From Halanaerobium salsuginis (GTDB taxonomy: Bacteria > Bacillota > Halanaerobiia > Halanaerobiales > Halanaerobiaceae): a stretch of 38,012 bases of DNA. Shown piece after piece: positions 1,694-23,562 of the stretch. Each line of letters opens with the position of its first letter. The stretch's first letter is position 1. Made by a program: the position numbers and the translations under genes. Below the pieces are notes generated by a model that worked only from the letters and a program-made list of their open reading frames with translations, made no database searches and was not told the DNA's origin. The stretch is taken from positions 1 to 38,012 of the forward strand of contig NZ_FOTI01000028.1 in assembly GCF_900114545.1 (NCBI RefSeq), written 5' to 3'.

Positions 1694-1719
1694 TTTAAAA
1701 TTCTCCTTTTTAAATATAT

Positions 1720-3068: not shown

Positions 3069-3117
3069 TATTTGACCTCCTAACTGCTACTTTAAAATTA
3101 AACAAAACAAATAAAAA

Positions 3118-5167: not shown

Positions 5168-5250
5168 CTGCTTCTTCCTTTCTTTTGCTCATTAACTAAG
5201 TTAGTTGAAATAGCTTATAAATCAAAAAATTTAAAGCTATTAATTATAAG

Positions 5251-6216: not shown

Positions 6217-7637
6217 CAATTATTCCGCTCCTGATAAATTTGATATTTGCTGGCCTGTTCCAGTAAATTTTTGATCAGTTCTGGATTACTGGCAAAATGA
6301 AGGTGAAGATAACTGCAAAGAACATTTGGCTGCGGTTGATAACCCAGATTACCTTTTTTAGTTAAATAGCTAGCTGTGAGATTAGAAGCGACTCTTTTTA
6401 ATTTAGAGTAATGAAAGAGGTGTCCCCTGGCCTGCTGACCAGTTTTAAATAATAAACTATCCTGTTGAGCAGTAACTTCTCGATAGCCCATTGCCTGCAG
6501 ACGATCAGTCATTACTACCTCAGCATCCAAAATTGCTGTCATTGGATAACTTTCACCTTTTAAATTAATAACTGAATTAGCCAGATACATTAACCCACCA
6601 CATTCTGCATAAAGAGGTAAACCAGCCTTAACTTGGCGAATAAAATCTACTTTGAATTCTTGATTAGCAGCTAGATCTGGGAGAAAACTTTCTGGAAAAC
6701 CGCCTCCTAAATAAACTGCTGCTACTTCTGGCAATTTTTTATCATGCAGAGGGCTAAAAAAAACTAACTCTGCACCTGCTTTTCTGAGCAAATCAAAATT
6801 AAATTGATAATAAAAATTAAATGCTTGATCATAGGCAATTCCTATTCTAAGAGCAAGTTGTTGTTTAGCACGATTAGGAAAAGCAGCTAAATTAACAGGT
6901 TTCTCGATTGTTTTAGTATTGGCTGAGCAGTTAATAACTAATTCTTCAACAGATTCAGCTAGTTCTAAAATAGCAGCTAAATCAAGATAATTATTTAAAT
7001 ATTTTTTTAACTGCTGACTAAATTCTTTAAGCTGAATGCTTTCCTGAACTGGTACTAAACCAAGATGACGTTCGGCCAATTTAAGTTCTAAATTTTTAGG
7101 AAGATATCCCAGTACTTTAACTCCTGCTAACCTATTTAGTAAAGCTGTTTTTAATAATTGATAATGATGTTTACTGCTTACATTATTAATGATAACTCCC
7201 TGCAGATCAACTTCCGGATCATAATGCTGATAACCATAAACAACTGCTGCAGCACTCTGAGCGATTTTAGCAGCATCGATTACCAAAATTACCGGAGCAG
7301 CTAACAATTTAGCTATTTCTGCTGTACTACTGGCTGCGGCTGAGCCTTTCCCATCATAAAGCCCCATTACTCCTTCAATTATTGCCAGATCAGCCTGTTT
7401 GCTACTCTGCATAAAAAGCTGCTGGACCCCGGTTCCACCTAAGAAATAACTATCTAGATTATATGATTTATTACCAGTGATAAGGGTATGAAAACCAGGA
7501 TCAATATAATCTGGTCCTACTTTATAAGGCTGAACCTGAAGTCCCTGCTGGCTAAACACAGCCATTAACCCCAAACTAATAGTTGTTTTGCCAACCCCAC
7601 TTCTACTACCAGCGATTACAAGACGGTTCTGCTTCAT
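6216..7637 (-). CDS. cbiA: Cobyrinate a,c-diamide synthase CbiA
   Basis: Glutamine- and ATP-dependent amidation of the a and c side chains of cobyrinate. The N-terminal dethiobiotin-synthetase-like ATPase domain has GSRSGVGKTT at 10-19 and YKVGPDYIDPGFH at 38-50. The C-terminal class-I-like glutaminase has its nucleophile Cys346 in YAECGGLMYL. I chose ATG at 7637 (473 residues) because AGGAGG at 7647-7652 lies nine bases upstream; a TTG six codons earlier would place that site inside the gene. The start overlaps the end of cbiG by 32 bp, and the stop overlaps cbiB. Confidence 0.94.
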   Translation of the reverse strand: MKQNRLVIAGSRSGVGKTTISLGLMAVFSQQGLQVQPYKVGPDYIDPGFHTLITGNKSYNLDSYFLGGTGVQQLFMQSSKQADLAIIEGVMGLYDGKGSAAASSTAEIAKLLAAPVILVIDAAKIAQSAAAVVYGYQHYDPEVDLQGVIINNVSSKHHYQLLKTALLNRLAGVKVLGYLPKNLELKLAERHLGLVPVQESIQLKEFSQQLKKYLNNYLDLAAILELAESVEELVINCSANTKTIEKPVNLAAFPNRAKQQLALRIGIAYDQAFNFYYQFNFDLLRKAGAELVFFSPLHDKKLPEVAAVYLGGGFPESFLPDLAANQEFKVDFIRQVKAGLPLYAECGGLMYLANSVINLKGESYPMTAILDAEVVMTDRLQAMGYREVTAQQDSLLFKTGQQARGHLFHYSKLKRVASNLTASYLTKKGNLGYQPQPNVLCSYLHLHFASNPELIKNLLEQASKYQIYQERNN

Positions 7638-8787
7638 AATTAATTTCCTCCTCAACTACTGAAATCGTAATTTTGCCAATAACCGCTTTATCAAGCAGCA
7701 GTTTTCCGGTAGAATTAGCTGTTAAAATTGCAGCTGGACTAGCTGCCGCTCCAACTCCAATTATTTTTTCTACAAAAGCTGATTTTTTTATTTGTAGCTC
7801 AGATATTTTTTCTTTAATCTTACTCAAAGCGATAAAATCCAGACTAAAATCATGCTTAACTGCATAATTTAACAAGCCAGTTTCTGTTTTTTTAATTTCA
7901 ATGCTGGCCAACTTTTTTATGCTTAAAATTGATAAATTTAATTCAGCAAATACGGTTTTTACTGCAGCATCAATTTCAGCTGATTTTATGCCCTGCCGAC
8001 AGCCAATACCAACTATAATATTATGCGGAATTAATTGAAGCTGACAAGCATTAAGTTTTAAAATCTGATTAGAAATTATTACTGCAAAATAAGCTGACTG
8101 ATCTGCTAGCTCTAACTTCTGTTTAATAGCAACTTTGTTTTGCACTTCAACAGGAGGCAAATTTTGTGCTAACAAATAGTCAGCCAATCTTGTGCTTAAA
8201 CGCTGATCGCTAAATAATTTTAATGGTTTTTTATTAACTAAGGCTGCATTAGCTGCAGTTAAATTTGCTGCTGGTTTAATTGTCAAGTTTAAATCACGAG
8301 CCAATATTTCAAAAGCTTTTCGTCCCTGACAATCAGTAGCAGTTGTGATAACTGGGTTAGCATTCAGCAAGTTTGCTAACTTAAGAGTTAGCTGATTAGC
8401 TCCTCCTAAATGACCAGAAAGAGTGCTAATCACATTACAGGCACTTTCATCAATAGTCACTACCGCCGGATCAGTTCTTTTATCAGCTAGCTGGCTAGCA
8501 ATGATCCGGACTACTATTCCAAGCGCCATTATAAAAACTAAACCCTGATAAGACTTGAAAATTTTACCAATCAATTTTCTTAGAGATTTAAAGTAAATTA
8601 CTTTTATTTTCTCGTCCCCTAATTGTAATTCTGACTTCAACTTAGCCGGCAGATAGAGATCTATGCCGGCTAAGTCAGTCTGCAGTCTCTGACTTAGCTT
8701 AATTCCATTACTGGTTAAAGCAATTACAGCTAGCTTATTTTTTGAACAAACTGATTGATTAGACTTTATCTGCTGATTTTCTGTCAT
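7606..8787 (-). CDS. cbiG: Cobalt-precorrin-5A hydrolase CbiG
   Basis: Opens the delta-lactone of cobalt-precorrin-5A and releases acetaldehyde, a step specific to the anaerobic route. The 393-residue protein has the expected layout: a divergent N-terminal domain, the conserved central signature with KRTDPAVVTIDE (103-114) and SGHLGGAN (124-131), and a C-terminal domain starting with GIGCRQG at about residue 260. The ATG at 8787 is preceded by GGAAGGAG. Its last codons contain the ribosome binding site of cbiA. It lies between cbiJ and cbiA, so consecutive pathway steps are clustered. Confidence 0.93.
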   Translation of the reverse strand: MTENQQIKSNQSVCSKNKLAVIALTSNGIKLSQRLQTDLAGIDLYLPAKLKSELQLGDEKIKVIYFKSLRKLIGKIFKSYQGLVFIMALGIVVRIIASQLADKRTDPAVVTIDESACNVISTLSGHLGGANQLTLKLANLLNANPVITTATDCQGRKAFEILARDLNLTIKPAANLTAANAALVNKKPLKLFSDQRLSTRLADYLLAQNLPPVEVQNKVAIKQKLELADQSAYFAVIISNQILKLNACQLQLIPHNIIVGIGCRQGIKSAEIDAAVKTVFAELNLSILSIKKLASIEIKKTETGLLNYAVKHDFSLDFIALSKIKEKISELQIKKSAFVEKIIGVGAAASPAAILTANSTGKLLLDKAVIGKITISVVEEEINYEAEPSCNRW

Positions 8788-8818
8788 CTTAAACTCCTTC
8801 CTGGTTAAGTCAGCCCAG

Positions 8819-9604
8819 CTAAAAATAATTTCTGGAAATTTTAAGCTGTTTGTGATAAGCCAATAATTCAGTTAATTTGTTAAATAACTTTGGATAAGGT
8901 AGTTCCGGTCTTTGAATAACTATTACTGGCAGTTTTAAATCAGCTGCTGCTTCTAATTTACTCTGTAGTCCTCCTATTTTACCACTGGCCTTACTAATAA
9001 CAACATCAGCCTCATATTCTTGAAACATAACCCGATTAAATTCTCTACTAAATGGTCCTTGAACAGCAATTATATTTTTACGACTAATTCCAAGTCCAAT
9101 TATTTCTGCTAAATAAACTGGATCAGGTAAAACTCGAGCAATTAAACGCTGTTCTTGCTCCTTTAACTGCTCGGCAAATAAGGGTAGATAGTGTGAACCT
9201 ATAGTCAAAAAAATCTTTTTAAATTGTCGGGCCTTTTCTGCTGCCTTCTGATAAGAATTAACCTGTATAATATTTTCACCAGCAAAATTAGCTAAATCTA
9301 ATTTTGGTCTTTGATAACGCAAATAAATAATCCCTGCTTTTTTAGCAGCAGCAATTGCATTTTGTGAAACTTGTGCTGCAAAGGGATGACTTAAATCAAT
9401 AATTTCTCGAATCTTATATTTATTAATTAAAGTCAGCATTGCTGCTTTATTCAGCTTTTTTTGTAAAACAGGTACTTCGAATTTAGCTTTGATTAATTTT
9501 TTCCCATAATTAGTTGTTACAGTAACGATTAGCTGCTCTTGTTCCTTAACTAACACTTCCAAAAGCTGATAACTATCTCTGGTCCCACCGATAATCCAGA
9601 TCAT
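8819..9604 (-). CDS. cbiJ: Cobalt-precorrin-6A reductase CbiJ
   Basis: NAD(P)H-dependent reduction of the macrocycle of cobalt-precorrin-6A. The 261-residue sequence shows the family marks: WIIGGTRDS at 3-11, DLSHPFAAQVS at 70-80, and a C-terminal SKASGKIGG motif, where most homologues have a SKxSGG variant, so this one is slightly divergent. ATG at 9604 overlaps the stop of cbiH by 4 bp. Equivalent to CobK of the aerobic route; the surrounding cbi genes place it in the anaerobic one. Confidence 0.9.
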   Translation of the reverse strand: MIWIIGGTRDSYQLLEVLVKEQEQLIVTVTTNYGKKLIKAKFEVPVLQKKLNKAAMLTLINKYKIREIIDLSHPFAAQVSQNAIAAAKKAGIIYLRYQRPKLDLANFAGENIIQVNSYQKAAEKARQFKKIFLTIGSHYLPLFAEQLKEQEQRLIARVLPDPVYLAEIIGLGISRKNIIAVQGPFSREFNRVMFQEYEADVVISKASGKIGGLQSKLEAAADLKLPVIVIQRPELPYPKLFNKLTELLAYHKQLKISRNYF

Positions 9605-10341
9605 AACTGATAACCCCGGGGCGTAACTAGCTGATCATTTTGACAGTAAGTCTGCGAATTGCCAATTATTACAGTTGTCAGCATATCAACTTTTTGTACT
9701 GGTATTTCCTGCAGATTAGTAATAATTATTTCTTGCTGCTGCCGCCCTGCATTACGAACAATTCCAACCGGTGTTTTTTCTGATCTAACCTTTAAAAAAA
9801 TTTTTTGAGCTGTAACTAACTGACTCTGACGTCTACTGCTGCGAGGATTATATAAGACTGTAATTAAATCTGCTCCAGCTGCAGCCTGCAGCCTCTTTTT
9901 TATTAGCGTCCAGGAAGTTAAAATATCACTTAAACTAATCACTGCATAATCATGCATTAATGGTGCTCCCAACAGAGCTGCTGCTGCATTAGCTGCTGTT
10001 ATTCCTGGAATTACTTCTACTTTAAGTTCTAACTTTTGCTGGTTTATATATTCTAAAACTGGACCAGCCATTCCATAAACACCAGCATCACCACTGCTAA
10101 TAATGGCTGTCTTTTTCCCAGATCTGGCAAAAGATATTGCCTTTTGTAAACGATCTTTTTCTGCTCTCATGCCACTGCTGTAAAGCTGTTGATTTGAAAT
10201 CAATTCAGTAATTAAATCCAGATATCTTTGATAACCAACAATTACCTCAACTTCTTGTAGAATTGCATAAGCTTCTCTACTAAGCTGTTTTAAATTTCCC
10301 GGACCAATTCCAACAATATATAAATCACTTGTTAAATTCAT
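9601..10341 (-). CDS. cbiH: Cobalt-precorrin-3B C17-methyltransferase CbiH
   Basis: Methylates C17 and drives ring contraction, using S-adenosylmethionine. It is a tetrapyrrole methylase with GIGPGN (11-16), the SSGDAGVYGMAG loop (82-93) and the signature LMHDYAVISLSDILTSW, which distinguishes CbiH/CobJ from the other methylases. The 246-residue length is normal. ATG at 10341 follows AAGGTGAT. No extra ferredoxin-like or CbiG domain is fused, unlike some homologues. Confidence 0.93.
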   Translation of the reverse strand: MNLTSDLYIVGIGPGNLKQLSREAYAILQEVEVIVGYQRYLDLITELISNQQLYSSGMRAEKDRLQKAISFARSGKKTAIISSGDAGVYGMAGPVLEYINQQKLELKVEVIPGITAANAAAALLGAPLMHDYAVISLSDILTSWTLIKKRLQAAAGADLITVLYNPRSSRRQSQLVTAQKIFLKVRSEKTPVGIVRNAGRQQQEIIITNLQEIPVQKVDMLTTVIIGNSQTYCQNDQLVTPRGYQL

Positions 10342-10376
10342 TTTATCACCTTAATTAAAACTTAGTTTAGCTTTTA

Positions 10377-10985
10377 TTATGATTCTGATCTTTTTCGGCT
10401 TATAAAATAAAGTGCCACTCCCATCAAACCAATTATATATCCGATTCCTCCCAATATTTCACTTATTCCTGGTTTTTCTTGCTCAGTAATTAATTTAGCG
10501 ATTTGCTTGCGCAAAGGCTTTACTTCCCGGGAAACTTCTTCAGCAACAATCTCTCTTAATTCTGCTTTACTCAATTCATTGCTGGAGCCTATAACTGCTG
10601 AGTTTTGATTATCTAAAGTCTGATCAGCAGGCTGTTTAAAATCTTTTGCTATTTCTGATTCATTAATTTGATATTCTGCCTGATGACCCATTCCTGCTTT
10701 TAAAATGATTTTTAAGTCTGTACGAGCAGGAATAGCAACTTCAGCTAGTCCTGCTTCATTTGTTTCACCTGTAGCCAGTAAATTATCCTGCTTATCATAA
10801 ATTTCTAATTTTGCTAAACGAGCCGGTGAACCATCACTAAAACCTGCTTCAATTTCTAAATTTGAGCCTTCTACATAAGCATACAAAATAACTCGATGTG
10901 CTAAAACAGCTGTAGAAAAACAAAAACTTAAAACTACTATTAATAATAAAATAGTAAAGAAACTATAGAATTTATTTTTATTCAT
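10377..10985 (-). CDS. NikL-like extracytoplasmic component of a Co/Ni ECF transporter
   Basis: A 202-residue protein with a signal peptide (about 1-29, ending VLA), a beta-rich domain resembling carboxypeptidase-regulatory or DUF4198-like folds (30-105), a charged possible coiled coil (about 135-170) and a C-terminal transmembrane helix (about 176-196) with a short basic tail. This is the architecture of NikL/CbiL-type accessory subunits (not the CbiL methyltransferase), which replace CbiN in some cobalt/nickel importers. Predicted cleavage leaves a mature N-terminal His (HRVILYAY), a possible metal ligand. It overlaps cbiM by 8 bp. Cobalt is the likely metal, given the riboswitch-led cobalamin operon. 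Confidence 0.75.
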   Translation of the reverse strand: MNKNKFYSFFTILLLIVVLSFCFSTAVLAHRVILYAYVEGSNLEIEAGFSDGSPARLAKLEIYDKQDNLLATGETNEAGLAEVAIPARTDLKIILKAGMGHQAEYQINESEIAKDFKQPADQTLDNQNSAVIGSSNELSKAELREIVAEEVSREVKPLRKQIAKLITEQEKPGISEILGGIGYIIGLMGVALYFISRKRSES

Positions 10986-11592
10986 TATTTTCTCCTCCTG
11001 CTAGTACTTCAGGTTTAACTTTTTTAATAAAAGAAATAATTACAGCGGTAATAACTGCTTCAATTATAATCACAGGTAAATGGGCTAATATTGTTATTTT
11101 CGCTATTTCCTGAAATGACTGATCGGTAAACATTAAAGAGGCAGCTACCATTAATGCTGTTAAAAAAACAGCCAGTCCTCCACTAGCAAAGGCTAGAACA
11201 GTTTCTAAAAAACTATTTTTTCTCAGCTGTAAAAAATTAAAAAGATAATAAACTAAAACTGCTGGTAACCCTACATTAAGTGTATTAACTCCCAATGTTG
11301 TTAGACCTCCAAATTGAAATAAAATACTCTGCAAAAAAAGAGCTACTAAAAAAGCCGGGAATACTTCCCATCCCAATAAAATACCAGCCAGACCATTTAA
11401 AATAAGATGAACACTAGTTGGACCAAGCGGAACATGAATTAAAGAAGCTACAAATAAAACAGCAGCTACCAAAGCAGTTTTAGGAATATCTGCTTCGTCC
11501 ATTTTCTTTAAACCAATTGCAACTCCAGCTGCTGTCACAGCTGCTCCTGTTATAAGTACTGGAGCTGCAAGAACTCCCTCTGAAATATGCAT
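10978..11592 (-). CDS. cbiM: Cobalt ECF transporter substrate-binding membrane subunit CbiM
   Basis: Membrane S-component that captures Co2+ (or Ni2+). The protein begins MHISEGVL; the N-terminal Met-His of CbiM/NikM coordinates metal. Further ligands are in HVPLGPTSVH (53-62). There are six to seven hydrophobic helices in 204 residues. It lacks the fused CbiN-like C-terminus seen in some long forms. The flanking genes are a NikL-like and a NikK-like protein, so the set is K-M-L. CbiQ and CbiO (transmembrane T-component and ATPase) are not found anywhere in this window. ATG follows AAAGGAGAG. Confidence 0.9.
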   Translation of the reverse strand: MHISEGVLAAPVLITGAAVTAAGVAIGLKKMDEADIPKTALVAAVLFVASLIHVPLGPTSVHLILNGLAGILLGWEVFPAFLVALFLQSILFQFGGLTTLGVNTLNVGLPAVLVYYLFNFLQLRKNSFLETVLAFASGGLAVFLTALMVAASLMFTDQSFQEIAKITILAHLPVIIIEAVITAVIISFIKKVKPEVLAGGENNE

Positions 11593-11659
11593 CTAAATTC
11601 TCTCCTTTTGCTAAAAATAAGTGTTCTCCATAAGTAAATTTGCATAATTAAATTATAAA

Positions 11660-12445
11660 TTAGTCAAAATTATAAGCTTTAACCCAGATAATTGCTCCTA
11701 CTTCATGATCTTTATTCTTAACTTTATCTCCAGTTAACAAAGCTGAAAAGCCCCACCAACCAGCCCTGGGAATAGTATAAACAAAGACACCATTTTGATC
11801 AGTTTTAACTACTTGATTTTCAAATACTGGGGCTGGCAAATTAAGTGAATTATCATTTAGGTCACTAAAAGAAGCTGTATTTAGATATTCAATTTCTATT
11901 TCTGCATCAGGAACTACTTTACCATTTCGTTTAACTATCCCCCGAAAACTATTTCCGGTCCAGAGTCCATATGGACGGGTAAGAGGTATAATTTCGGCTG
12001 GCAGACCAAGTTCGCTATCCCAATCAGTAGGCATTCCCATTTTATTGACTACTATTTTAGTGAATTGGGTTATATATTTATCTTCAGAACTTTCGAAATA
12101 AGGAGCTGGTTCCAGATAAAAAACATAATCACCAGGAGCTTTAGTCTGATAACTAGCCTGCCAAATCTGTTTGCCCTTAAATTTAGCTGCTTTAAGTGTT
12201 GACAAGAGATCAGTAGTTTTTCCTCGATTTACAACTCCAAATCTAACTGGTTTTTTCATTTCCATAGTTGGCCCTGCTGCCATAGGATGAGTAAAAATAA
12301 GCTGTAAGCTAAGCTCAGCTGACTCAGTCCTATCAATTGTGTCATCACTTGGTAAAATCAGCTGAAAATGTGCTGCTGCTGGATAAGTAAGCATTAAGCT
12401 CACAGTAAAAATCAGAAATAAAACAAGTAATTTTTTATTAATCAT
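11660..12445 (-). CDS. NikK-like periplasmic DUF4198 protein, Co/Ni uptake
   Basis: A 261-residue secreted protein. The signal peptide spans residues 1-25 (basic start, hydrophobic core, AAA cleavage site) and has no lipobox cysteine, so it should be released rather than lipid-anchored. The mature form begins HFQLILPS, again with an N-terminal His. The remainder resembles DUF4198 proteins: an Ig-like half and a C-terminal domain with GNSFRGIVKRNGKVVPDAEIEIEY-type spacing, typical of carboxypeptidase-regulatory-like folds. DUF4198 proteins named NikK occur next to NikM/NikL. It precedes cbiM by 67 bp. The specific role, metal capture or delivery, is inferred from context. Confidence 0.72.
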   Translation of the reverse strand: MINKKLLVLFLIFTVSLMLTYPAAAHFQLILPSDDTIDRTESAELSLQLIFTHPMAAGPTMEMKKPVRFGVVNRGKTTDLLSTLKAAKFKGKQIWQASYQTKAPGDYVFYLEPAPYFESSEDKYITQFTKIVVNKMGMPTDWDSELGLPAEIIPLTRPYGLWTGNSFRGIVKRNGKVVPDAEIEIEYLNTASFSDLNDNSLNLPAPVFENQVVKTDQNGVFVYTIPRAGWWGFSALLTGDKVKNKDHEVGAIIWVKAYNFD

Positions 12446-12533
12446 TTTAACACTTCCTAAATTAAATTTTATAAAATATTAAGTATCTAAAATTAATTAA
12501 AACAACTTAAAGCAAAATATTTTAAAATTATAA

Positions 12534-14078
12534 TCACTCTACTGTTTCAGTAATTAAAGCAGCAACTTTAGCTAAATATTTTTTTTGAACTGCTTCGTAT
12601 TCTCCCAGACCAGTTAAATAACATTCAACCTCAAAACCATTCTGCTGAACAATATTTATCCAACTATCAGGACCTTCTCCAGCCATATCATTTTGAACAT
12701 GATCACCAGCTACTAGCATTAATGGAATTAATTTCACTTTAGATATTTTTTGTTTAGCAGAAAATTTTAATTTAGGCAGAACATCTGTCAGTGCAGGATA
12801 AGCTTCAACAGTTGCCACATGATAATTAGCTGCTATTTTATCTTTTAAAACATAATCAAAAGCACTATAAACTGAATTAGCTGGATGTTCACTACCATGC
12901 CCCATTAAAATCGCTGCTTCTCCTGGGGCTAAATTAATTTTATTTTTTATAATTTCAGCTAGTTCAAAATAATCATTAGTTGTGGTTAAAAGGGCCTGAC
13001 CTAATTTTATTTTTCTAAATTTATGCTGATAGTTATTAACTGCTCTAGCTAGATCATGAAATTCACTACCATTAATAATATGCAGCGGCTGCACAATTAT
13101 TTCCTGATAACCAGCTCTATAAAGTTTATTTAAAGCTTGTTCAGGATTATCAATTTCTATTTTATCTCTAGCTTTAAGCTTATTAATAATCATCTCAGAA
13201 GTAAAAGCTCGCTTAACCTGATAGTCTGGATAAGCTGCCGCAATTCTTTTTTCACAGGCTGCTATCGTTTTAGTTCTTGTCTGTGCATAACTTGTTCCAA
13301 AACTAACAACTAAAATCGCCTTTTTTTCTGCAGTTGGCTGGCGATATTCATGGCTAAAATTAGCGGCATATAATTTAGAGTTAGGGGAATTATTGGCTAA
13401 AAATTCTCCAACTAAAATTAAAGCTGTTTTCTTTATGCCAGCAGCAGTGACTTTTTCTACTATATTAGCTAGTGTGCCGCGAATTATTTCCTGATCAGGC
13501 CAGCTGGCCCGGGATACAACTGCAGTTGGAGTTGTGAGAGGATAATGATTATGTAAATTTTTTACTACTTGATCGATTAGCTGAACACTTAAAAAGATCG
13601 CCATAGATGCCCGATGAGCAGCTAAATCTGCTAACTTTTCCCGTTCAGGAACTGCAGTTCTTCCTGCCTGGCGGGTCAAAATTACAGTCTGGCTTAGTTC
13701 TGGCAAAGTATATTCTCTTGCCAGCACAGCAGCTGCAGCTAAAAATGAGCTAACTCCCGGGATTATTTCAAAAGGGATTTCATTTTTAATTAGAAGATCA
13801 AGCTGTTCTTTTAAAGCACCATAAAGAGACGGATCACCTGTCTGCAGACGTACAACATCAATTCCCTGCTGAACTGCCTGTTTAATTATTTTAAATATCT
13901 CATTCAAAGTTAACTCAGCACTATTATAAACTTCTGCTGCTGGATTATAATCTAATAAAGCAGGATTAACCAATGAACCAGCATAAATAATTATCCCTGC
14001 TTTTTCTAGCCTTTTTTTCCCTTTAACAGTAATTAATTCAGGATCACCAGGACCAGCTCCAATAAAATATACCTTCAT
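12534..14078 (-). CDS. cbiF-cbiK: Fusion: cobalt-precorrin-4 C11-methyltransferase (CbiF) + sirohydrochlorin cobaltochelatase (CbiK)
   Basis: One 514-residue reading frame carrying two enzymes. Residues 1-235 are a CbiF methylase: GAGPGDPELITVKG (7-20), the CbiF signature around YAGSLVNP (32-39), LQTGDPSLYGA (78-88). After a short linker (about 235-252) comes a complete CbiK chelatase: VVSFGTSYAQTR (257-268), VQPLHIINGSEFHDL (329-343) with His333, GHGSEHP (393-399), EAYPAL (425-430), and AGDHVQNDMAGE (457-468) with His460, matching the two active-site histidines of CbiK. There is no stop or frameshift between the halves. CbiK acts at the entry of the pathway and CbiF later, so the fusion does not join consecutive steps. 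ATG follows AAAGGAGTT. An 88-bp gap precedes the transporter genes. Confidence 0.93.
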   Translation of the reverse strand: MKVYFIGAGPGDPELITVKGKKRLEKAGIIIYAGSLVNPALLDYNPAAEVYNSAELTLNEIFKIIKQAVQQGIDVVRLQTGDPSLYGALKEQLDLLIKNEIPFEIIPGVSSFLAAAAVLAREYTLPELSQTVILTRQAGRTAVPEREKLADLAAHRASMAIFLSVQLIDQVVKNLHNHYPLTTPTAVVSRASWPDQEIIRGTLANIVEKVTAAGIKKTALILVGEFLANNSPNSKLYAANFSHEYRQPTAEKKAILVVSFGTSYAQTRTKTIAACEKRIAAAYPDYQVKRAFTSEMIINKLKARDKIEIDNPEQALNKLYRAGYQEIIVQPLHIINGSEFHDLARAVNNYQHKFRKIKLGQALLTTTNDYFELAEIIKNKINLAPGEAAILMGHGSEHPANSVYSAFDYVLKDKIAANYHVATVEAYPALTDVLPKLKFSAKQKISKVKLIPLMLVAGDHVQNDMAGEGPDSWINIVQQNGFEVECYLTGLGEYEAVQKKYLAKVAALITETVE

Positions 14079-14090
14079 ATCTAACTCCTT

Positions 14091-14798
14091 TTAACTTATT
14101 TTTTTAATAATTAATAATGATAAATATTGAATTTCTCCAGCTGCTATTTCTGACAGATTCTGACTAAAAAATTCTTCAGCTAATCCAACTCTACTGCCTA
14201 ATAAAAGCTGATAATTAAATTCTGCCTGACTTAAAAATTGATAGGTTTGTTTAAAATTCTGTGATAATTTTAAAATAACTACTGTTTCAAATAGTTTAAA
14301 TACAGCTGAAAGTTGTTTTTTATTTTTAACCTTAGACAAAATTGCTGTGTTTTCTTTTCCTGCTGCCAGAGGTAAATTATTAGCAGCTGTACAGGCAGAA
14401 ATTGCTGTAATACCTGGTATTGTTTCAACAAGAAGTTCTGGATCTCTACTTTTAATTAGTTCAACTAAATAATTAAAAGTACTATAAAACAAGGGATCAC
14501 CTATTGTAATAAAAGCACAGCTTTTTCCCTGACTAAGTAAATGATAAATTTCTGCTGCTGCTTTTTTTCTAACCTGCTGCTGAATATGGACTGATTTTGA
14601 CATTTTAAAATTTAGAAGTTTAATCTGCTGCTGCTCTGTAATAATTTCTTTAACAACCAGAAGAGCAGTGCTATTTTTATTTTCACCAGCAGTTGGGGTT
14701 AAAATATAATCTACCTGCTGGAGTGTTTTTACTGCTTTTAAAGTTAAAAATTCTGTTTTACCGGGACCAACTCCAACTCCATATAATTTTGCCAGCAC
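14091..14798 (-). CDS. cbiL: Cobalt-precorrin-2 C20-methyltransferase CbiL
   Basis: First ring methylation after cobalt insertion. It is a 235-residue tetrapyrrole methylase with GVGPGKTEFLTLKA at 8-21 and a conserved ITIGDPLFYSTF loop near residue 127. The early KAVKTLQQVDYI stretch and the QVRKKAA segment are typical of CbiL/CobI. The start codon is GTG at 14798 behind a G-rich GAGGGGGGAT site. Only 2 bp separate it from cbiT. This is the methyltransferase, not the like-named transport protein. Confidence 0.92.
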   Translation of the reverse strand: MLAKLYGVGVGPGKTEFLTLKAVKTLQQVDYILTPTAGENKNSTALLVVKEIITEQQQIKLLNFKMSKSVHIQQQVRKKAAAEIYHLLSQGKSCAFITIGDPLFYSTFNYLVELIKSRDPELLVETIPGITAISACTAANNLPLAAGKENTAILSKVKNKKQLSAVFKLFETVVILKLSQNFKQTYQFLSQAEFNYQLLLGSRVGLAEEFFSQNLSEIAAGEIQYLSLLIIKKIS

Positions 14799-14800
14799 AG

Positions 14801-15391
14801 TTATCCCCCCTCTGTAATTCTAATCAAAAATATTTGATTTAAAGCTTTAAATAATTTATAGTCTTTAATTTTTTGAGTATAATTTATATTAATACTCCAG
14901 ACCTCAACTTCTTCTGAGCCATTATTAAAATAACTAGCCACCTCAGTTAAAGTATTTAAAGTAATTGCTGATAGTAAAATAATTCCACCTGCTTTAAGTT
15001 TTTTTAAAGAAAGAGTTAAAATTTCTGCCAGTTTTCCACTACTTCCACCAATAAAAATTCTATCTGCTGCTTCTAGAGTATTTAAAGCTTCCGGAGCAGT
15101 TCCCTGGATTAATTTAATATTATTAACCTTAAAACGTTCGATATTTTTTTCAATTACCTGACAGGCTTGTTTCTCTTTTTCAACTGCATAAACTAGGCCA
15201 TCTTTTACCTGTAAAGCAGTTTCTATACTAACACTTCCTGAGCCTGCTCCAATATCATAAATAATTTGACCAGACTTTAGTTTTAATTTTGATATTATTA
15301 ATGCTCTTATTTCTGATTTAGTCATCGGTACTTGATCTCGATAAAAAAATTGATCTTCAATTCCAGGAGTGTTGTAATTCCAACTAGTCAT
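14801..15391 (-). CDS. cbiT: Cobalt-precorrin-6B C15-methyltransferase (decarboxylating) CbiT
   Basis: Methylates C15 and decarboxylates the C12 acetate. It has a class-I methyltransferase fold with the SAM motif DIGAGSGSVSIE at 46-57 and the preceding YRDQVPMTKSEIRAL stretch typical of CbiT. I use the ATG at 15391 (196 residues). An upstream in-frame TTG would add 12 residues of low similarity encoded entirely within cbiE. The ATG overlaps the end of cbiE by 8 bp (ATGACTAG). CbiE and CbiT are one polypeptide (CobL) in many bacteria, and here they are separate but adjacent. Confidence 0.9.
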   Translation of the reverse strand: MTSWNYNTPGIEDQFFYRDQVPMTKSEIRALIISKLKLKSGQIIYDIGAGSGSVSIETALQVKDGLVYAVEKEKQACQVIEKNIERFKVNNIKLIQGTAPEALNTLEAADRIFIGGSSGKLAEILTLSLKKLKAGGIILLSAITLNTLTEVASYFNNGSEEVEVWSININYTQKIKDYKLFKALNQIFLIRITEGG

Positions 15392-16037
15392 TTTCAAACA
15401 CCAACTTTGTTTTAGCAAGCACAACAATTGTCAAATCAGCAAAACTTTGGCTTGCTATTCTATTTAAACTACCAGAAATAATTCTTTCATCTGGATAAGA
15501 AAGATTTTCTAAAACATAACAGTAAAGATCTGGATAACCAGACTCTAATAGAAACTTTGCCAGCTGATCAGCTGAATTTTTTTGGTCTGTTAACAAAGCA
15601 ATCGGTAGCTGTTCAGGTAAAGCATTCAACAACCTGCTGCGATTATCTTTGCCATGTAAACTAATTATTTTTAGTCCTGCCCAATCTATTTTTAATCGAG
15701 CTGCTGCCAGTTGAAAAGAACTAATTCCTGGAATAATGGTAAATAAATCTGAACCCAACTCACGTTTGAGATAGTTGGCAATACTGTAAAACCCAGGATC
15801 ACCTGAAACAAGTACTGCTATTTTTTTCTGCTGATAATTAGCCATAATATATTTCTTTACTTTTAGTAAGTCAGCTTTAATTGTTATTTTCGTTTGTCCT
15901 AAATCAGCAAAAAGCTGTAGTGCCCGCTGACCACCAATTAAGACATCAGCCTGTCTAATTAAAGAATCAGCTTTTAAAGTCAAGTATTCTGTCTTGCCAG
16001 GACCAATTCCGATAATAAATACTTTGTTTTCTGCCAA
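15384..16037 (-). CDS. cbiE: Cobalt-precorrin-7 C5-methyltransferase CbiE
   Basis: SAM-dependent methylation at C5. It is a 217-residue tetrapyrrole methylase with GIGPGKTEYLT at 10-20, VLIGGQRAL near 35-43 and the LVSGDPGFYSIA loop; these fit CbiE/CobL-N. The start is TTG at 16037, the only suitably placed codon, with GGGTGAG upstream. It overlaps cbiT. Confidence 0.9.
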   Translation of the reverse strand: MAENKVFIIGIGPGKTEYLTLKADSLIRQADVLIGGQRALQLFADLGQTKITIKADLLKVKKYIMANYQQKKIAVLVSGDPGFYSIANYLKRELGSDLFTIIPGISSFQLAAARLKIDWAGLKIISLHGKDNRSRLLNALPEQLPIALLTDQKNSADQLAKFLLESGYPDLYCYVLENLSYPDERIISGSLNRIASQSFADLTIVVLAKTKLVFEND

Positions 16038-16063
16038 ACTAACTCACCCTTTTCTTATCTTAA

Positions 16064-17332
16064 TTAACAGCAGTTAAAATTATCAAACGGTTCAGAAACT
16101 GCAACTATGCCATCTGCAAAAGTAAAGATAGCTGCCTTAACATCTGCATCTACTTCTACTGCTGCCAACCTAGCCTGAACTCGCTTAGCAATTTCTACTG
16201 CTGCTGGTTGTAAAACTTTAGAGATCAGCCCCTGCTCTTTTAAATAAAGAGCTGCTAATTCAGCAGTATCTTTATTAAAAAGTTCAATAATTAACTCCTG
16301 GTCTGCTCCTGCTAAAGCTGCATAAGCAGCAATTATTTCTCGTCTGGCATCAGCCACTTTACTGTGAGTATTAAAAATACCTGCCGCAACTTTAATTATT
16401 TTCCCAACATGTCCAATCATTAATATTTCACTAATTGCAAGTCCTTGACAGTGATCAAGTAAATAGCCAACAAAATTGCTCATCCTGATAATCTGGTCTT
16501 CAACATAACCCATTTTTAAAGCTAATTCTTTACCATGATTACCAAAAACTAACACAAATTTATGTATTCCTTCTGCAGCTGCTTGTCTCAATTCTAGACT
16601 TAATGATTCCCGGTAAGCTGATTCAGACATTGGTTCAACAATTCCAGTAGTCCCCAATAAAGAAATTCCTGCCAGGATTCCTAATTTTGAATTAAATGTT
16701 TTTTGAGCAACTTTTTTCCCAGCTGGTACTGAAATAGTAACTTTAATTGTTTTTGCAGGAGGAAGTACAGACTGAACTGCTTTTTTGATCATTAATCTAG
16801 GAATAGGATTAATAGCTACCTGACCTGGTTTGAGTTTTAACCCGGGCCGACTAACTCTGCCTATTCCTCTTCCAGCCGTCAGAAAAGCATTATTCTTCTT
16901 GTCAGGCTCTCCAACTTCAGCAAAACAAATTGTTGCTTTTAAAAGATCAGCCAGCCAGGCTGACTTATTCTTATTAGTAAAATTTCGAGAAGCAGAATCA
17001 AGAAAATATTTTTCGAAAATAATTTCATCTGTTAATTCTTTTTGGCTAAGAAGTTCTGCTGTTGCTATAATTGCAATTTTATCGGTTACATCAGGATCAT
17101 CACCAGCATCTTTTGTGATTGTAACACTGGCTGAATTTTTATTAAAATTAATATTAGCTGGCTCAAGCTTAAGTTTAATTCCAGCTGGAGTCAATAATTC
17201 TACTTCTTTTATTTCTTGCTGTTTAAATAAAATTTGAACAGCAGCCTTAGCAGCTGCAGCTGCTGCACTTCCAGTTGTAAAACCAAGTCGATATTCTTTA
17301 CCGTTTTTTTTAATATATTTATTTAATTTCAC
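16064..17332 (-). CDS. cbiD: Cobalt-precorrin-5B C1-methyltransferase CbiD
   Basis: Methylates C1 in the anaerobic pathway. The hallmark RLGFTTGSAAAAAAKAA begins at about residue 15, followed by DAGDDPDVTD, GRGIGRVSRPGL and NPIPRLMI, all CbiD signatures. The first in-frame candidate is a TTG at 17368 inside cbiC. I prefer GTG at 17332, one base after the cbiC stop, giving 422 residues; neither has a strong ribosome binding site. It is somewhat longer than typical CbiD (about 360-380), the excess being mainly at the C-terminus. Confidence 0.92.
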   Translation of the reverse strand: MKLNKYIKKNGKEYRLGFTTGSAAAAAAKAAVQILFKQQEIKEVELLTPAGIKLKLEPANINFNKNSASVTITKDAGDDPDVTDKIAIIATAELLSQKELTDEIIFEKYFLDSASRNFTNKNKSAWLADLLKATICFAEVGEPDKKNNAFLTAGRGIGRVSRPGLKLKPGQVAINPIPRLMIKKAVQSVLPPAKTIKVTISVPAGKKVAQKTFNSKLGILAGISLLGTTGIVEPMSESAYRESLSLELRQAAAEGIHKFVLVFGNHGKELALKMGYVEDQIIRMSNFVGYLLDHCQGLAISEILMIGHVGKIIKVAAGIFNTHSKVADARREIIAAYAALAGADQELIIELFNKDTAELAALYLKEQGLISKVLQPAAVEIAKRVQARLAAVEVDADVKAAIFTFADGIVAVSEPFDNFNCC

Positions 17333-17333
17333 T

Positions 17334-17960
17334 TTAATCAGCCAGCTGATAAAGCAGCGAATTAACAATTGCAGCTGCTACTGCACTACCACCACGTCTG
17401 CCCAGCAAAGTAATAAATGGAAAATCCTGTTTGTTAAGTTCAGCTTTCGATTCAGCTGCTCCAACAAATCCAACAGGAGTTCCAATTAGAAAATCAATTG
17501 CTTGATTTTCTAATTGATAAAGTCTAATTAATTCAAATAGAGCGGTTGGCGCATTACCAATAGCAAAGATTTTAGGTTGCTTAAGCTTTATTGCTTTTCT
17601 CATTGCCATAATTGAACGAGTTAAACCTGTTTTTTCTGCCTGACTGCGAACTTCAGAATCAGCAATAAAACATTTGACCTGACCTCCATATTCAGCTAAT
17701 TTAACTTTGTTAATTCCAGCCTGTAGCATTGAAACATCAGTAATTATATCTGCACCTTGCCGGAGTAGATTCTTTGCCCTGTTTACTGCATCAGGTGAAA
17801 ATCGTACTTGCCGGGCAAGCTCTGGTTCTGCAGTTGCATGTACAACTCTTTTTATTGTAATTAATTCTTCAGCAGTACAGTCAAGCTTATCCAGAGCACC
17901 AGCTATAATCTGCATACTTTTTTCTTCGATTGCAGTTGGATTATTTACTTCTATTTCCAT
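17334..17960 (-). CDS. cbiC: Cobalt-precorrin-8 methylmutase CbiC
   Basis: Moves the C11 methyl group to C12, yielding cobyrinic acid. The 208-residue protein has the catalytic histidine (His41) in KRVVHATAEPELA, followed by VRFSPDAV and later GNAPTALFEL, TPVGFVGAAESK and GRRGGSAVAAAIVN, all conserved in CbiC/CobH. ATG at 17960. It sits 23 bp after cobO and runs directly into cbiD. Confidence 0.94.
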   Translation of the reverse strand: MEIEVNNPTAIEEKSMQIIAGALDKLDCTAEELITIKRVVHATAEPELARQVRFSPDAVNRAKNLLRQGADIITDVSMLQAGINKVKLAEYGGQVKCFIADSEVRSQAEKTGLTRSIMAMRKAIKLKQPKIFAIGNAPTALFELIRLYQLENQAIDFLIGTPVGFVGAAESKAELNKQDFPFITLLGRRGGSAVAAAIVNSLLYQLAD

Positions 17961-17983
17961 AATTATTCAGTCCTTTTTGAAAA

Positions 17984-18496
17984 TTATTTTTCTATTCCCA
18001 GCCGGGCAGTTATTCCCTGCTGATAATAATGTTTAACCGCCTGCATTTCAGTAACTAAGTCAGCATATTCGATTAACTTAACTTCTGCTCCTCGCCCAGT
18101 AATTATAACCTCTACCTTAGTTTGACGTAGTTCCAGGATAGAAATTAAATCTTCTACTGTAAAAAAATTATAGTTAATTGCTATATTAGCTTCATCAAGA
18201 ATAACCAGATCATACTCCCCAGCAGTTAAAACTTTTTTTACAGTTTCTAAGCCTGCTCTTACAGCTAATCGATCAGCTTCTGTAGCTGATCTTTTAATAA
18301 AGTCTGGCTGGCCAAATTGACTGATTTTTATTGATGATAATTTTGCTAGAGCTTTTACTTCGCTGTAATCACCTTGCTTTAAAAATTGAGCAATAAATAT
18401 CTGCTTACCAGCTCCGGCAGCCCGCAGAGCAAGACCTAGAGCAGCAGTAGTTTTCCCTTTGCCATTTCCTGTATATACTTGAATCATTCCCCGCAT
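17984..18496 (-). CDS. cobO: Cob(I)yrinic acid a,c-diamide adenosyltransferase CobO/BtuR
   Basis: Transfers the 5'-deoxyadenosyl group of ATP to Co(I) corrinoid. It is a CobA/CobO/BtuR-type enzyme with the unusual P-loop GNGKGKTTAALG at about 10-21, QFLKQGDYSE near 56-65 and a Walker-B-like LVILDEANIA. At 170 residues it is of standard length. ATG at 18496 lies six bases after a perfect AGGAGG. It stands between cbiP and cbiC, and adenosylation precedes amidation by CbiP. Confidence 0.94.
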   Translation of the reverse strand: MRGMIQVYTGNGKGKTTAALGLALRAAGAGKQIFIAQFLKQGDYSEVKALAKLSSIKISQFGQPDFIKRSATEADRLAVRAGLETVKKVLTAGEYDLVILDEANIAINYNFFTVEDLISILELRQTKVEVIITGRGAEVKLIEYADLVTEMQAVKHYYQQGITARLGIEK

Positions 18497-18506
18497 TAAA
18501 ATCCTC

Positions 18507-20045
18507 CTATACTTCTTTATTAATAATTTTATTTAACAAATCTAAATCAAGATACTGGCTAAATTTATCAGCCAGATAATTATAGTTTTTTTCTCTTAAA
18601 AAATCAGCCGACTCTATATTTGGCAGTGGTTTTAAACCTTTTTTTAAACGCAAATAATTAATCAAAGCACTGCGGAATTCATCATTCCTAAAAATATCAT
18701 GTAAATAAGTTCCCCAGACATTGCCTGCTTTATTTATGGCGCCAGAAAGATAGGCTTTTTTATTGTCAGCTAAAGATTTAGCAGTAGATTTAAATCTTTT
18801 AATTTTAAATAATTGTTTACTCTCTTTGCTTAAAGTACTGCGCCCCTGATGAATTTCATAAGCAGTTAATTTTGTAAATTGATCAGCTTTACTAAATGGT
18901 AAATTCCCCAGATCAAAAGCCTGCACCTGACTTGTTATTTTTTCTGAACTTAATTCTGTCCTTAAAGGTAGTAAGTTTAAACCAGTCTGCTGCTTGATCA
19001 CTGATTCTTGCTGATCTGGATCGCTAATTTCTTTACCCAGCATTTGATAACCAGCACAAATACCAATTATCATTTTACCTGCTTTAGCCGCCTGACAAAT
19101 CAAATCGGCCAACCCAGTTTGATAAAGAAAGTTAAGTGATTTAATTGTAGTTTTGCTGCCCGGCAGAATAATTAAATCAGGCTGACCAAATTCTGCAGCT
19201 GAACTAATGAATCTTAAGCTTATTCCTGGCATAAACTTAAAGTAATCAAAATCAGTAAAATTAGCCAGCTGAGGATAGGCAATAACTACTAGATCAAGCT
19301 GATGTTCAGATTGCTTAAATACTCTGGTAGTTAGACTATTTTCAGCTGGTAGAGAAAGTTCTTTTAAGTAGGGCATTACACCCAAAACTTTTTTTCCTGT
19401 TCTAGCTTCAATTATTTTAACTCCATCGGCAAAATCCGCTGGATCACCGCGAAATTTATTAATAATAATTCCTTTAATTCGTTTACGTTCTTTTTCTGTT
19501 AACAATTCAAAGGTACCAATAACAGCTGCAAAAATACCGCCTTTATCAATATCTGCTATCAGAATAACTGGTGCATTTGCTAATTCTGCTGACTTCATAT
19601 TAACTAAATCTTTGTTTTTTAAATTAATTTCAGCTGGACTGCCTCCGCCTTCGAGTACTATTAAATCAAAGTTTTCACTTAATTCAATCAGAGCCTGCTT
19701 CACTACTTTTAGAAAAAAATTATGTTCAGAAAAATATTGATCTGCCTGCATATTTTTATAAATTTTTCCTAGCAAAATCACTTGAGAATCATCATCAGCA
19801 TTTGGCTTTAATAAAATAGGACTCATTTGAACAGTTGGTTTTACCTGAGCTGCTGCTGCCTGAACTGCCTGAGCCATAGCTACCTCACTACCATCTGCAC
19901 AAATATAAGAATTGAGTGACATGTTCTGAGCTTTAAAAGGTGTTACTTTATAACCCTGCCTGGCAAAAAAACGACAACATGCAGCAGCTAAAATGCTTTT
20001 ACCAACTTCAGAAGCTGTGCCCTGAAACATAATTGTTTTTGTCAT
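18507..20045 (-). CDS. cbiP: Cobyric acid synthase CbiP (canonical copy)
   Basis: Glutamine-dependent amidation of the b, d, e and g side chains of adenosylcobyrinate diamide. It is a 512-residue, two-domain protein: ATPase with GTASEVGKS (9-17), PFKAQNMSLNS (36-46), SPILLKP (75-81) and LIADIDKGG (162-170); glutaminase with Cys330 in GICAGYQMLG and His449 in GTYLHD. All conserved positions of the family are present, so I regard this as the working copy. It lies 23 bp behind a divergent paralog and 10 bp before cobO. Confidence 0.94.
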   Translation of the reverse strand: MTKTIMFQGTASEVGKSILAAACCRFFARQGYKVTPFKAQNMSLNSYICADGSEVAMAQAVQAAAAQVKPTVQMSPILLKPNADDDSQVILLGKIYKNMQADQYFSEHNFFLKVVKQALIELSENFDLIVLEGGGSPAEINLKNKDLVNMKSAELANAPVILIADIDKGGIFAAVIGTFELLTEKERKRIKGIIINKFRGDPADFADGVKIIEARTGKKVLGVMPYLKELSLPAENSLTTRVFKQSEHQLDLVVIAYPQLANFTDFDYFKFMPGISLRFISSAAEFGQPDLIILPGSKTTIKSLNFLYQTGLADLICQAAKAGKMIIGICAGYQMLGKEISDPDQQESVIKQQTGLNLLPLRTELSSEKITSQVQAFDLGNLPFSKADQFTKLTAYEIHQGRSTLSKESKQLFKIKRFKSTAKSLADNKKAYLSGAINKAGNVWGTYLHDIFRNDEFRSALINYLRLKKGLKPLPNIESADFLREKNYNYLADKFSQYLDLDLLNKIINKEV

Positions 20046-20068
20046 AATAAATTTCTGCCCTTTCTAAA

Positions 20069-21676
20069 TCAATTTAATTTTAAGCCAATAATTTCAAAGT
20101 TTAATTTTTCTGCCAGACCAGCTGCCAACAAATCAAAATTTCTTTCTAGCTCTTGCTGATAAGATAAGCTAAATCTGGCAGCTTTAAAATCAGCCTGATA
20201 AGAATTGTTCGAAGAAATTTTAAGCTTAGTTTTTTTCTGCCAGAGAAAAGTTAATAATTTACTCCGAAAACTGTCATTACTAAATAAATCATGCAGATAA
20301 GTGCCTAGACAGTTTCCTGCTGTATTAACTGCACCATCCTTAATGATTTTATTACAAGATTTACTGCTTTCTATTGGCTGAAGTTCAAATAGATGAGCTG
20401 TTCTTTTAGTTAGATAAGTAGTCTGCCCCTGATGAATTTCATAACCGGATAATTCTGCTGTGGATAATTCTTTTAAAAAAGATGATTGGGATTCTGCTAA
20501 AACTGGATTAAGTACTGCTTTTACCTGCTGTGTAGTTTTATTAGTATAAAATTCTGTTTTAATAGGCAGCAGTCCCAACCCTGCAATTTCGCTGAGCTCA
20601 CTCTCTGTTCCAGCTTGGTCAATTATTTTTTGACCAAGCATCTGATAGCCACCACAAATACCAATTACCATCTTCCCCTGGGCAACTGCTAATTTAATTT
20701 GCTCAGCTAAACCACTGCTTTTTAAATAATTTAAGTCAGCCATGGTTGTTTTACTCCCCGGAATTATAATTAAATCATAGCCAGCCAAATCAGCCTGAGC
20801 AGTCAAATAGCTTAGTTCAACATGATTTTCTAATTCTAGTGCTTTAAAATCAGTAAAATTAGCTAGCTGAGGTAATTTTAAGACAGCAATCTTAATTAAA
20901 TTATTTTTATTAGTTTTATTTAAACTAGTTTTGGATCGAAATTTGAGCGAAGCCGAATCTTCTTCTGGTAAATTAATTTTTTTAAAATAAGGCAAAACTC
21001 CTAGCATTGGTTTTTTAGTATAGTTACTCAGAAAATCTAGAGCTGGCTCCAGGATATTATAATCTCCTCTAAATTTATTGATCAATAATCCTTTAACCAA
21101 TTCTCTTTCTGCTGGCCTGAAAAGTTTTATAGTTCCAACCAAAGCTGCCAGGCTACCGCCCTGCTCAATACTAGATGCTAAAACAACCGGAGTTTGATTA
21201 AGCAGAGCTGTATACATATTGGCCAGATCTGGTCCCTGCCGATTTAATTCAACCGGACTACCTGCACCTTCCAGAATTACAAATTGATGTTGAGAAATCA
21301 AGTTACTCAAAGACTGCTGAATTACTCTTTGCATCTGGCTTTGATAATCTTTTTTGATTACCTGATAAGGACCTGTAAAAACTACTTCTCCCTGTAAAAT
21401 AAGCTGACATTTACCAATTCCAAGTGGTTTCAATAAAACTGGCTGCATATCTGCTGTAGCGGTTTTATAAGCAGCCTGTGCCTGTAAAAATTGGGCAAAT
21501 CCAATTTCAGCACCAGTAGTTGTTATAGCAGAATTTAACGACATATTCCAGGCTTTAAAAGGAACTACATCAATACCTTGATTAGCTAAAAGGCGGCAGA
21601 GACCTGTTACAATAAAACTTTTACCTGTATCAGATGCTGTTCCCTGAATCATTAATGTTTTTGCCTGTCTGTACAT
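20069..21676 (-). CDS. Second cobyric acid synthase-like protein (divergent CbiP paralog)
   Basis: A 535-residue paralog of the next gene with the same two domains: GTASDTGKS at 12-20, a glutaminase nucleophile Cys341 in GICGGYQMLG and His462 in GTYLHD. The ATPase domain differs at positions conserved in CbiP: PFKAWNM (Trp43 for Gln), LKPLGIGKCQL in place of a DxGSQV-type loop, and ASSIEQGG (167-174) in place of ADIDxGG. It is first in the operon, with ATG at 21676 behind AAGGAG. It could share the four amidations, act on another corrinoid, or have lost ATPase activity. The family is clear; the function is not. Confidence 0.8.
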   Translation of the reverse strand: MYRQAKTLMIQGTASDTGKSFIVTGLCRLLANQGIDVVPFKAWNMSLNSAITTTGAEIGFAQFLQAQAAYKTATADMQPVLLKPLGIGKCQLILQGEVVFTGPYQVIKKDYQSQMQRVIQQSLSNLISQHQFVILEGAGSPVELNRQGPDLANMYTALLNQTPVVLASSIEQGGSLAALVGTIKLFRPAERELVKGLLINKFRGDYNILEPALDFLSNYTKKPMLGVLPYFKKINLPEEDSASLKFRSKTSLNKTNKNNLIKIAVLKLPQLANFTDFKALELENHVELSYLTAQADLAGYDLIIIPGSKTTMADLNYLKSSGLAEQIKLAVAQGKMVIGICGGYQMLGQKIIDQAGTESELSEIAGLGLLPIKTEFYTNKTTQQVKAVLNPVLAESQSSFLKELSTAELSGYEIHQGQTTYLTKRTAHLFELQPIESSKSCNKIIKDGAVNTAGNCLGTYLHDLFSNDSFRSKLLTFLWQKKTKLKISSNNSYQADFKAARFSLSYQQELERNFDLLAAGLAEKLNFEIIGLKLN

Positions 21677-21849: not shown

Positions 21850-21985
21850 TGTAGGAAACATAAATAGGCAGGTCTCCTGACTCCTGGTTAAGCAAAGTTA
21901 AACAGTTACAGTGGCGGGCCCGTTCAGGCTTTTAACCTGATTCCCTATTCTCCTAAAGCCATAGCTAAAGGCACCTATTCATATC
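21850..21985 (-). promoter_or_regulatory. Cobalamin (AdoCbl) riboswitch
   Basis: On the minus strand the conserved blocks appear in order: AATAGGTGCC near 21980-21970, GAATAGGGAATC, a hairpin with loop AAAA (CAGGTTAAAAGCCTG), ACGGGCCCGCCACTGT (around 21922-21908), and AGTCAGGAGACCTGCCTATTT (around 21885-21864, the B12-box region). This is the standard cobalamin riboswitch core. It precedes the entire biosynthesis and cobalt uptake operon, so the pathway should be turned off by its product. The stretch 21760-21850 between aptamer and terminator is AT-rich leader. Confidence 0.95.
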
Positions 21986-22012
21986 ACTATATTATTTTTT
22001 TAATATCGAAAA

Positions 22013-23523: not shown

Positions 23524-23562
23524 TGACTAGCCAGATAAATATTTTATAAAGGAGAAAAGATA

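Follow-up and report, generated by a model that had tools for sequence, protein, structure and literature searches.

Introduction

A long-standing puzzle of B12 biosynthesis is how cobyric acid synthase (CbiP) recognizes four different propionate side chains, and does so in a fixed order. The amidations made by the Salmonella enzyme are, going by the title of the study, said to be "sequential and dissociative." CbiP, or CobQ, is described in at least one account as adding the last four amides (PMC7242693), and the known enzyme is regarded as a single protein responsible for all four amidations. In contrast, the locus described here, on a 38,012-nucleotide contig of Halanaerobium salsuginis (NZ_FOTI01000028.1, the whole of which is referred to as the window) from a 2.99-Mb genome, carries two tandem cbiP genes, the products of which are named W (FKxWNM) and Q (FKxQNM) after a motif residue. 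Judged from sequence, W and Q are ancient, co-inherited tandem paralogs of cobyric acid synthase, each with synthetase and glutaminase machinery. They may share cobyric acid amidation as specialized enzymes, with Q tied to the product of CbiA, a reading to which we give a probability slightly below one half (roughly 0.47).

Among solved structures, the closest folds belong to GatD, CTP synthase and dethiobiotin synthetase, and no solved CbiP was matched by sequence in the PDB (none at E 0.001, while a second search returned only GatD, other glutaminases and dethiobiotin synthetases). The best solved match for the glutaminase domain is the lipid II amidating complex MurT/GatD, in which synthetase and glutaminase are on separate chains. 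In gut bacteria, a salvage type that has CbiP but lacks CbiA has been described in one account and is read there as cobyrinate diamide salvage (PMC6593275). No account of a conserved CbiP pair was found in the open-access literature, most subscription journals lying outside that search.

Both Copies Belong to the CbiP Family

The two tandem cbiP open reading frames (ORFs) that an earlier note on this DNA had recognized are indeed present on the minus strand, as are all features of the pair given below: CbiP-W, the first copy, spans 20069..21676 and encodes 535 amino acids, and CbiP-Q, the second, a cobyric acid synthase with canonical motifs, spans 18507..20045 and encodes 512. The proteins share 40% identity, and both score above the curated cut-offs of the CbiP profiles NF001989 (cut-off 273 bits; W 527.9, Q 589.4) and TIGR00313 (cut-off 309.9; W 439.6, Q 508.8). 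Like CbiP/CobQ, each joins an N-terminal CbiA-type synthetase domain to a C-terminal GATase_3 glutaminase domain (Pfam PF07685; residues 262–469 of W, 20270..20893, and residues 252–457 of Q, 18675..19292), and both are encoded in a B12 operon. The Walker A Lys and Ser of the P-loop, the Glu of the EGAG motif and the glutaminase Cys, Glu, His and His are present in both copies, which agrees with the earlier statement that the first copy keeps its P-loop and its glutaminase Cys and His. AlphaFold2 models both as confident folds, with a predicted local distance difference test score (pLDDT) of 92.1 for Q and 88.8 for W. Other identities were rejected, as W and Q reach 55.8 and 50.1 bits, respectively, against a cut-off of 254 for CobB/CbiA, W reaches 29.8 bits against the GatD cut-off of 400, and CfbB was dismissed for W by profile score. 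Among named GTDB genomes, the closest matches to the W of the window are from Halanaerobium species.

Unlike the known enzyme, W has Trp43 in place of Gln in its FKAWNM motif (21542..21559, placed by alignment and pattern match), a changed loop after LLKP (LLKPLGIG) and an A..Y motif that is mostly gone; the alignment also places SSIEQGGSL (21149..21175) where ADIDxGGVF is canonical, with Leu176 corresponding to Q-copy position 172. FKAWNM, SSIEQGG and the changed loop after LLKP had been reported previously. From the ORF translation and the alignment, Q has FKAQNM (19920..19937) and ADIDKGGIF (residues 164–172, 19530..19556). The combination of FKxQNM and ADIDxGG, which is conserved in single CbiPs and was drawn from the alignment rather than from a curated rule, is thus found in Q and absent from W, hence W is regarded as a divergent CbiP sub-type rather than a canonical one. 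The description of the second copy as fully canonical holds for the named motifs but not elsewhere: among 81 near-fixed columns (at least 97.5% conserved in 47 single CbiPs), Q deviates at 8 and W at 4, whereas 35 of the 47 single CbiPs deviate at none, and Q is therefore not fully canonical. Profile alignment puts the changed motifs of W on loops of dethiobiotin synthetase that we take to be substrate-side.

Distribution and Age of the Pair

The W–Q pair was found in 32 genomes, namely 12 of the 38 examined in the order, 12 more in the class and 8 in three other Bacillota families, and every one of the 32 pairs has W ahead of Q, adjacent and on the same strand. Within the order, a CbiP match was obtained in 25 genomes, comprising 12 with tandem W and Q, 7 with W only and 6 with only a CbiP of another clade, while across the class a match was obtained in 39 of 59 genomes, the 12 tandem pairs beyond the order falling in two more families and being joined by 2 genomes with the other type. 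A DNA pattern for PFKxWNM, which was checked on known loci and run on 398 genomes drawn from the phylum, matched 21 of them: 11 belong to the class of the window, 8 lie outside it and contain a real pair (families f9, f74, and f129), and 2 (G113 and G427) are false, with no CbiP or other B12 gene in the surrounding stretches. The pair may have reached f9, f74, and f129 either by descent or by transfer. When 57 CbiP loci of named genomes were scanned, 53 had one CbiP in the stretch examined and 4 had two, all 4 being from Halanaerobium.

Two trees separate W from Q. In a tree of 75 CbiPs (12 of 87 rows were left out), 19 W and 11 paired Q lie on opposite sides of a branch with a support of 100/99. 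In a second tree, from which the signature columns had been removed, 34 W and 27 paired Q separate in 200 of 200 bootstrap trees, although the separating branch itself has a support of only 76/94 and the W side also includes a single Symbiobacterium CbiP that has FKxQNM. This tree used 96 of 116 rows, near-duplicates and fragments having been left out, among them the W of G025 and G034, one of the two W of G037, and the two rows each of G170 and G173. Rows were typed as W or Q by the motif residue, which the tree separating the two omits. The separation implies that the split predates the families of the class, and the duplication is old.

Over nine genome pairs, the ratio of nonsynonymous to synonymous substitution rates (dN/dS) is 0.069–0.273 for W and 0.083–0.196 for Q, with dS saturated in some pairs and the highest values involving the window's own lineage. 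Both copies are evidently under similar purifying selection, which speaks against a recent duplicate under relaxed selection. The recent duplication that the earlier note had set against its own proposal was looked for and rejected, as neither clustering by genome nor a rise of dN/dS in one copy was seen; likewise, a frame error or pseudogene was rejected in view of the intact ORFs, the old split and the purifying selection.

Signatures That Distinguish W From Q

In Q-copy numbering, which is used from here on, all 39 W rows have Trp at position 40 and all 76 other rows have Gln, and FKxWNM is therefore a family trait, neither damage nor a chance change. In most W, Asn75 is changed to Gln and Leu142 is replaced; a Gly follows LLKPx in 35 of 39, and the A..Y motif has mostly lost both its Ala and its Tyr. 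At position 172, which belongs to the ADIDxGG-VF motif, all 30 paired W have Leu, whereas all 29 paired Q have Phe. Every full-length W retains the Walker Lys and Ser, the EGAG Glu and all four glutaminase residues. Only W of the Halanaerobium family (7/7) shows SSIE or SNID in place of ADID, the first Asp being kept in 32 of 32 W elsewhere, and SSIE is a later change within Halanaerobium. The altered motifs of the first copy hence come apart, as FKxWNM extends to the whole W family and SSIE/SNID does not extend beyond the Halanaerobium family.

All 47 single CbiPs have Asp165, whereas among the pairs it has been lost from 7 of 29 W and from 4 of 29 Q, in no case from both partners (the pair tables hold 29 pairs rather than 30, because the Q of G025 is near-identical to that of G024 and was dropped). 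Since these losses represent few events, the one-partner-only pattern is suggestive only. Two co-inherited CbiP paralogs with fixed signatures constitute, on the evidence of their sequences, a new variant within the CbiP family. The earlier interpretation is borne out in part: the functional divergence suspected for the first copy is supported, in that W is an ancient paralog with conserved signatures of its own, under purifying selection and beside its partner in 32 of 32 pairs.

Individual pairs carry further substitutions: the W of two loci (L109 and L110, in G013 and G011) has Ala for the first Gly of the P-loop, and one Q (L168:6287-7786, in G262) has Lys at the otherwise fixed Glu397, in the glutaminase GYEIH motif.

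Genomes With W Alone and Pairs Without Glutaminase

The seven W-only genomes (G001, G008, and G033–G037), three of which are <90% complete, lack CbiD and have no CbiA or CbiF above the cut-off. In the W-only loci examined, cobU, cbiB or other late genes lie near W, and a BtuF-like protein is present in the three that were checked; from their gene content, these genomes look like salvagers. They resemble the Acbr-type salvagers, as these are described in one source, in having CbiP and late B12 genes without CbiA or CbiD, but that type is set by gene content alone, whereas here the retained CbiP is the W paralog (PMC6593275). CbiA accompanies 29 of 30 intact pairs (the exception is G038) vs. none of the seven W-only genomes. 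The DUF71/PF01902 family, for which at least one report predicts a role in B12 salvage (PMC3541065), is present in 7 of 7 W-only genomes and in both genomes whose Q partner has decayed; it also occurs with 1 of the 30 intact pairs and in a single genome that lacks CbiP. Within the order, this amounts to 7/7 W-only vs. 0/12 paired genomes. CbiZ, as a salvage partner, was found in 0 of the 38 genomes of the order. The distribution of CbiA, CbiD and DUF71 therefore indicates that Q goes with CbiA and ring synthesis, and that W does not.

All seven rows of lone W have Phe172, the Q-type residue, which reflects three independent changes with three losses of Q (the seven rows represent six of the seven W-only genomes, as G035 has no row of its own and shares its core with the row of G036). 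Columns 172 and 448, the latter beside a glutaminase His, perfectly distinguish lone W from paired W. When the W rows were grouped in 3342 other comparable ways, at least two such columns arose in 13 groupings and at least one in 119.

Some CbiPs are short. In G024 (L091:8639-10391) and G025 (L092), which are de novo makers by gene content, W and Q comprise ~290 residues each and lack the glutaminase domain, Q keeping its C-terminal tail. G132 and G332 (L125 and L170) combine a short W with a Q partner without the Walker Lys (family f74), and G001 has one short W (L093:7748-8614). In the six short CbiPs that were scanned, out of nine seen, Pfam found no glutaminase domain. Pairs of this kind need an ammonia source. 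G025 also has an extra CbiP-like fragment beside CbiA-like pieces at a contig end (contig C28, 1-1581).

A Possible Division of Labor

In genomes that make the corrin ring, W and Q would split the work that follows cobyrinic acid a,c-diamide, with each of them amidating, at the expense of ATP and glutamine, those of the b, d, e, and g side chains, or those partly amidated intermediates, that it prefers. Q would probably perform early amidations on the product of CbiA and W later or finishing ones, and the hand-over between them would be chemically easy if intermediates leave the enzyme between steps. In salvagers without CbiA, Q would have been lost and W alone would serve as CbiP, having gained the Q-type residue 172, so that W might be able to turn generalist again when alone. 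The W of the window would then be a working, specialized amidating enzyme, not a relic. Specialization is favored because Q is tied to de novo synthesis, W is retained everywhere and lone W has the Q-type residue at position 172. However, several points weigh against it. No sequence feature appears to mark the side chains taken by each copy, and a sign test on three independent losses cannot go below 0.25. That the lost copy was Q every time (three losses, or four with the decayed f74 partner) could be chance. Because W stands alone in seven genomes, a W-type enzyme presumably does enough by itself, and since single CbiPs of Selenomonadaceae read GGALA, Leu172 alone does not exclude a full CbiP.

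A doubtful alternative is that W and Q associate as a heterodimer whose active sites lie between the subunits, each site borrowing residues from both chains, and one partner may therefore lose catalytic residues while function is kept. This would accommodate SSIE and the P-loop Ala in W of Halanaerobium, the missing Walker Lys in the f74 Q partner and the loss of Asp165 from one member of a pair only, and it is consistent with two lineages (G024/G025 and G132/G332) in which both members lack the glutaminase and are still adjacent. A precedent is offered by dethiobiotin synthase, one of the fold matches, the substrate site of which is placed by at least one account in a cavity between the two subunits of a homodimer (PMC8659263). 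However, the occurrence of W without Q in seven genomes means that a heterodimer is not obligatory for W, and the rate covariation of W with Q ranks 22 among 78 gene pairs, which is unremarkable and uninformative about contact. It is also unlikely that each copy is a complete CbiP and the two draw their substrate from different sources, with Q taking the de novo product of CbiA and W imported or partly de-amidated corrinoids for salvage or repair. All seven genomes of the order in which W occurs without CbiA and CbiD have W as their sole CbiP, and the setting of W there, with DUF71, late genes and a BtuF-like binding protein, fits such a role, as does the gut salvage type, so far as the accounts of the two go (PMC3541065; PMC6593275). 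Yet every de novo genome of the pair lineages keeps W beside Q, usually in the ring-synthesis operon, of which W is the first gene in the window, and the change of lone W toward Q at position 172 would be needless if paired W were already complete.

Very improbable, in our estimate, is a decay of the Halanaerobium W into a non-catalytic or regulatory partner, which would leave cobyric acid to be made by Q only. W of the Halanaerobium family has lost Asp165 (7/7) and Pro81 (6/7), and the P-loop of two species lacks its first Gly; dN/dS in the window's lineage is higher for W (0.27) than for Q (0.20). On the other hand, none of the seven W of this family has lost the Walker Lys or Ser, the EGAG Glu or any of the four glutaminase residues, W is modeled as a confident fold, and dN/dS of W within genus is 0.13–0.16 in other pairs, like that of Q.

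Beyond specialization as such, and more tentatively, cobyric acid synthesis in these lineages could be a two-enzyme system in which the four amidations are split between co-evolved paralogs, which might join in a heterodimer that has two distinct composite active sites, and some lineages may have stripped the glutaminase from both and run on ammonia or a borrowed glutaminase. If the pair splits the work, the puzzle of side-chain recognition becomes a comparison of two enzymes, for which Gln/Trp40, Asn/Gln75, the loop after LLKP and Phe/Leu172 are singled out as residues to swap. Profile annotation gives one name to two probably different proteins.

The B12 Operon of the Window

The cbiP tandem apparently forms the first genes of a complete anaerobic B12 operon that lies behind a cobalamin riboswitch and reaches base 433. 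The riboswitch (21850..21993, minus strand; Rfam RF00174, 83.3 bits, gathering score 31.5) is just upstream of CbiP-W, which is the first gene after it, as had been proposed. The remainder of the operon, within 433..18496 on the minus strand, comprises cobA, cbiC, cbiD, cbiE, cbiT, cbiL, a cbiF-cbiK fusion, a DUF4198 gene, cbiM, nikL, cbiH, cbiJ, cbiG, cbiA, cbiB, a GHMP kinase gene, cobD, cobU, cobS, and cblT-like and cblS-like genes, the last two being names that we presume for Pfam matches to ECF_trnsprt and AIRS. An ORF at 6216..7655 (minus strand) matches NF002204 with 522.7 bits (cut-off 254).

A single ORF of 514 amino acids (12534-14078, minus strand) encodes CbiF fused to the cobalt chelatase CbiK; the fusion has the same length in Halanaerobium relatives, whereas the CbiF ORF is short in families f8 and f81. 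The DUF4198 protein (11660-12445, minus strand), encoded between cbiM and the cbiF-cbiK fusion and absent from this position in some relatives, is probably part of cobalt uptake. Divergent from the operon, a gene for an FTCD_C-domain protein is followed by an ORF that reads as FolD-like by its sequence (22924-24405, plus strand).

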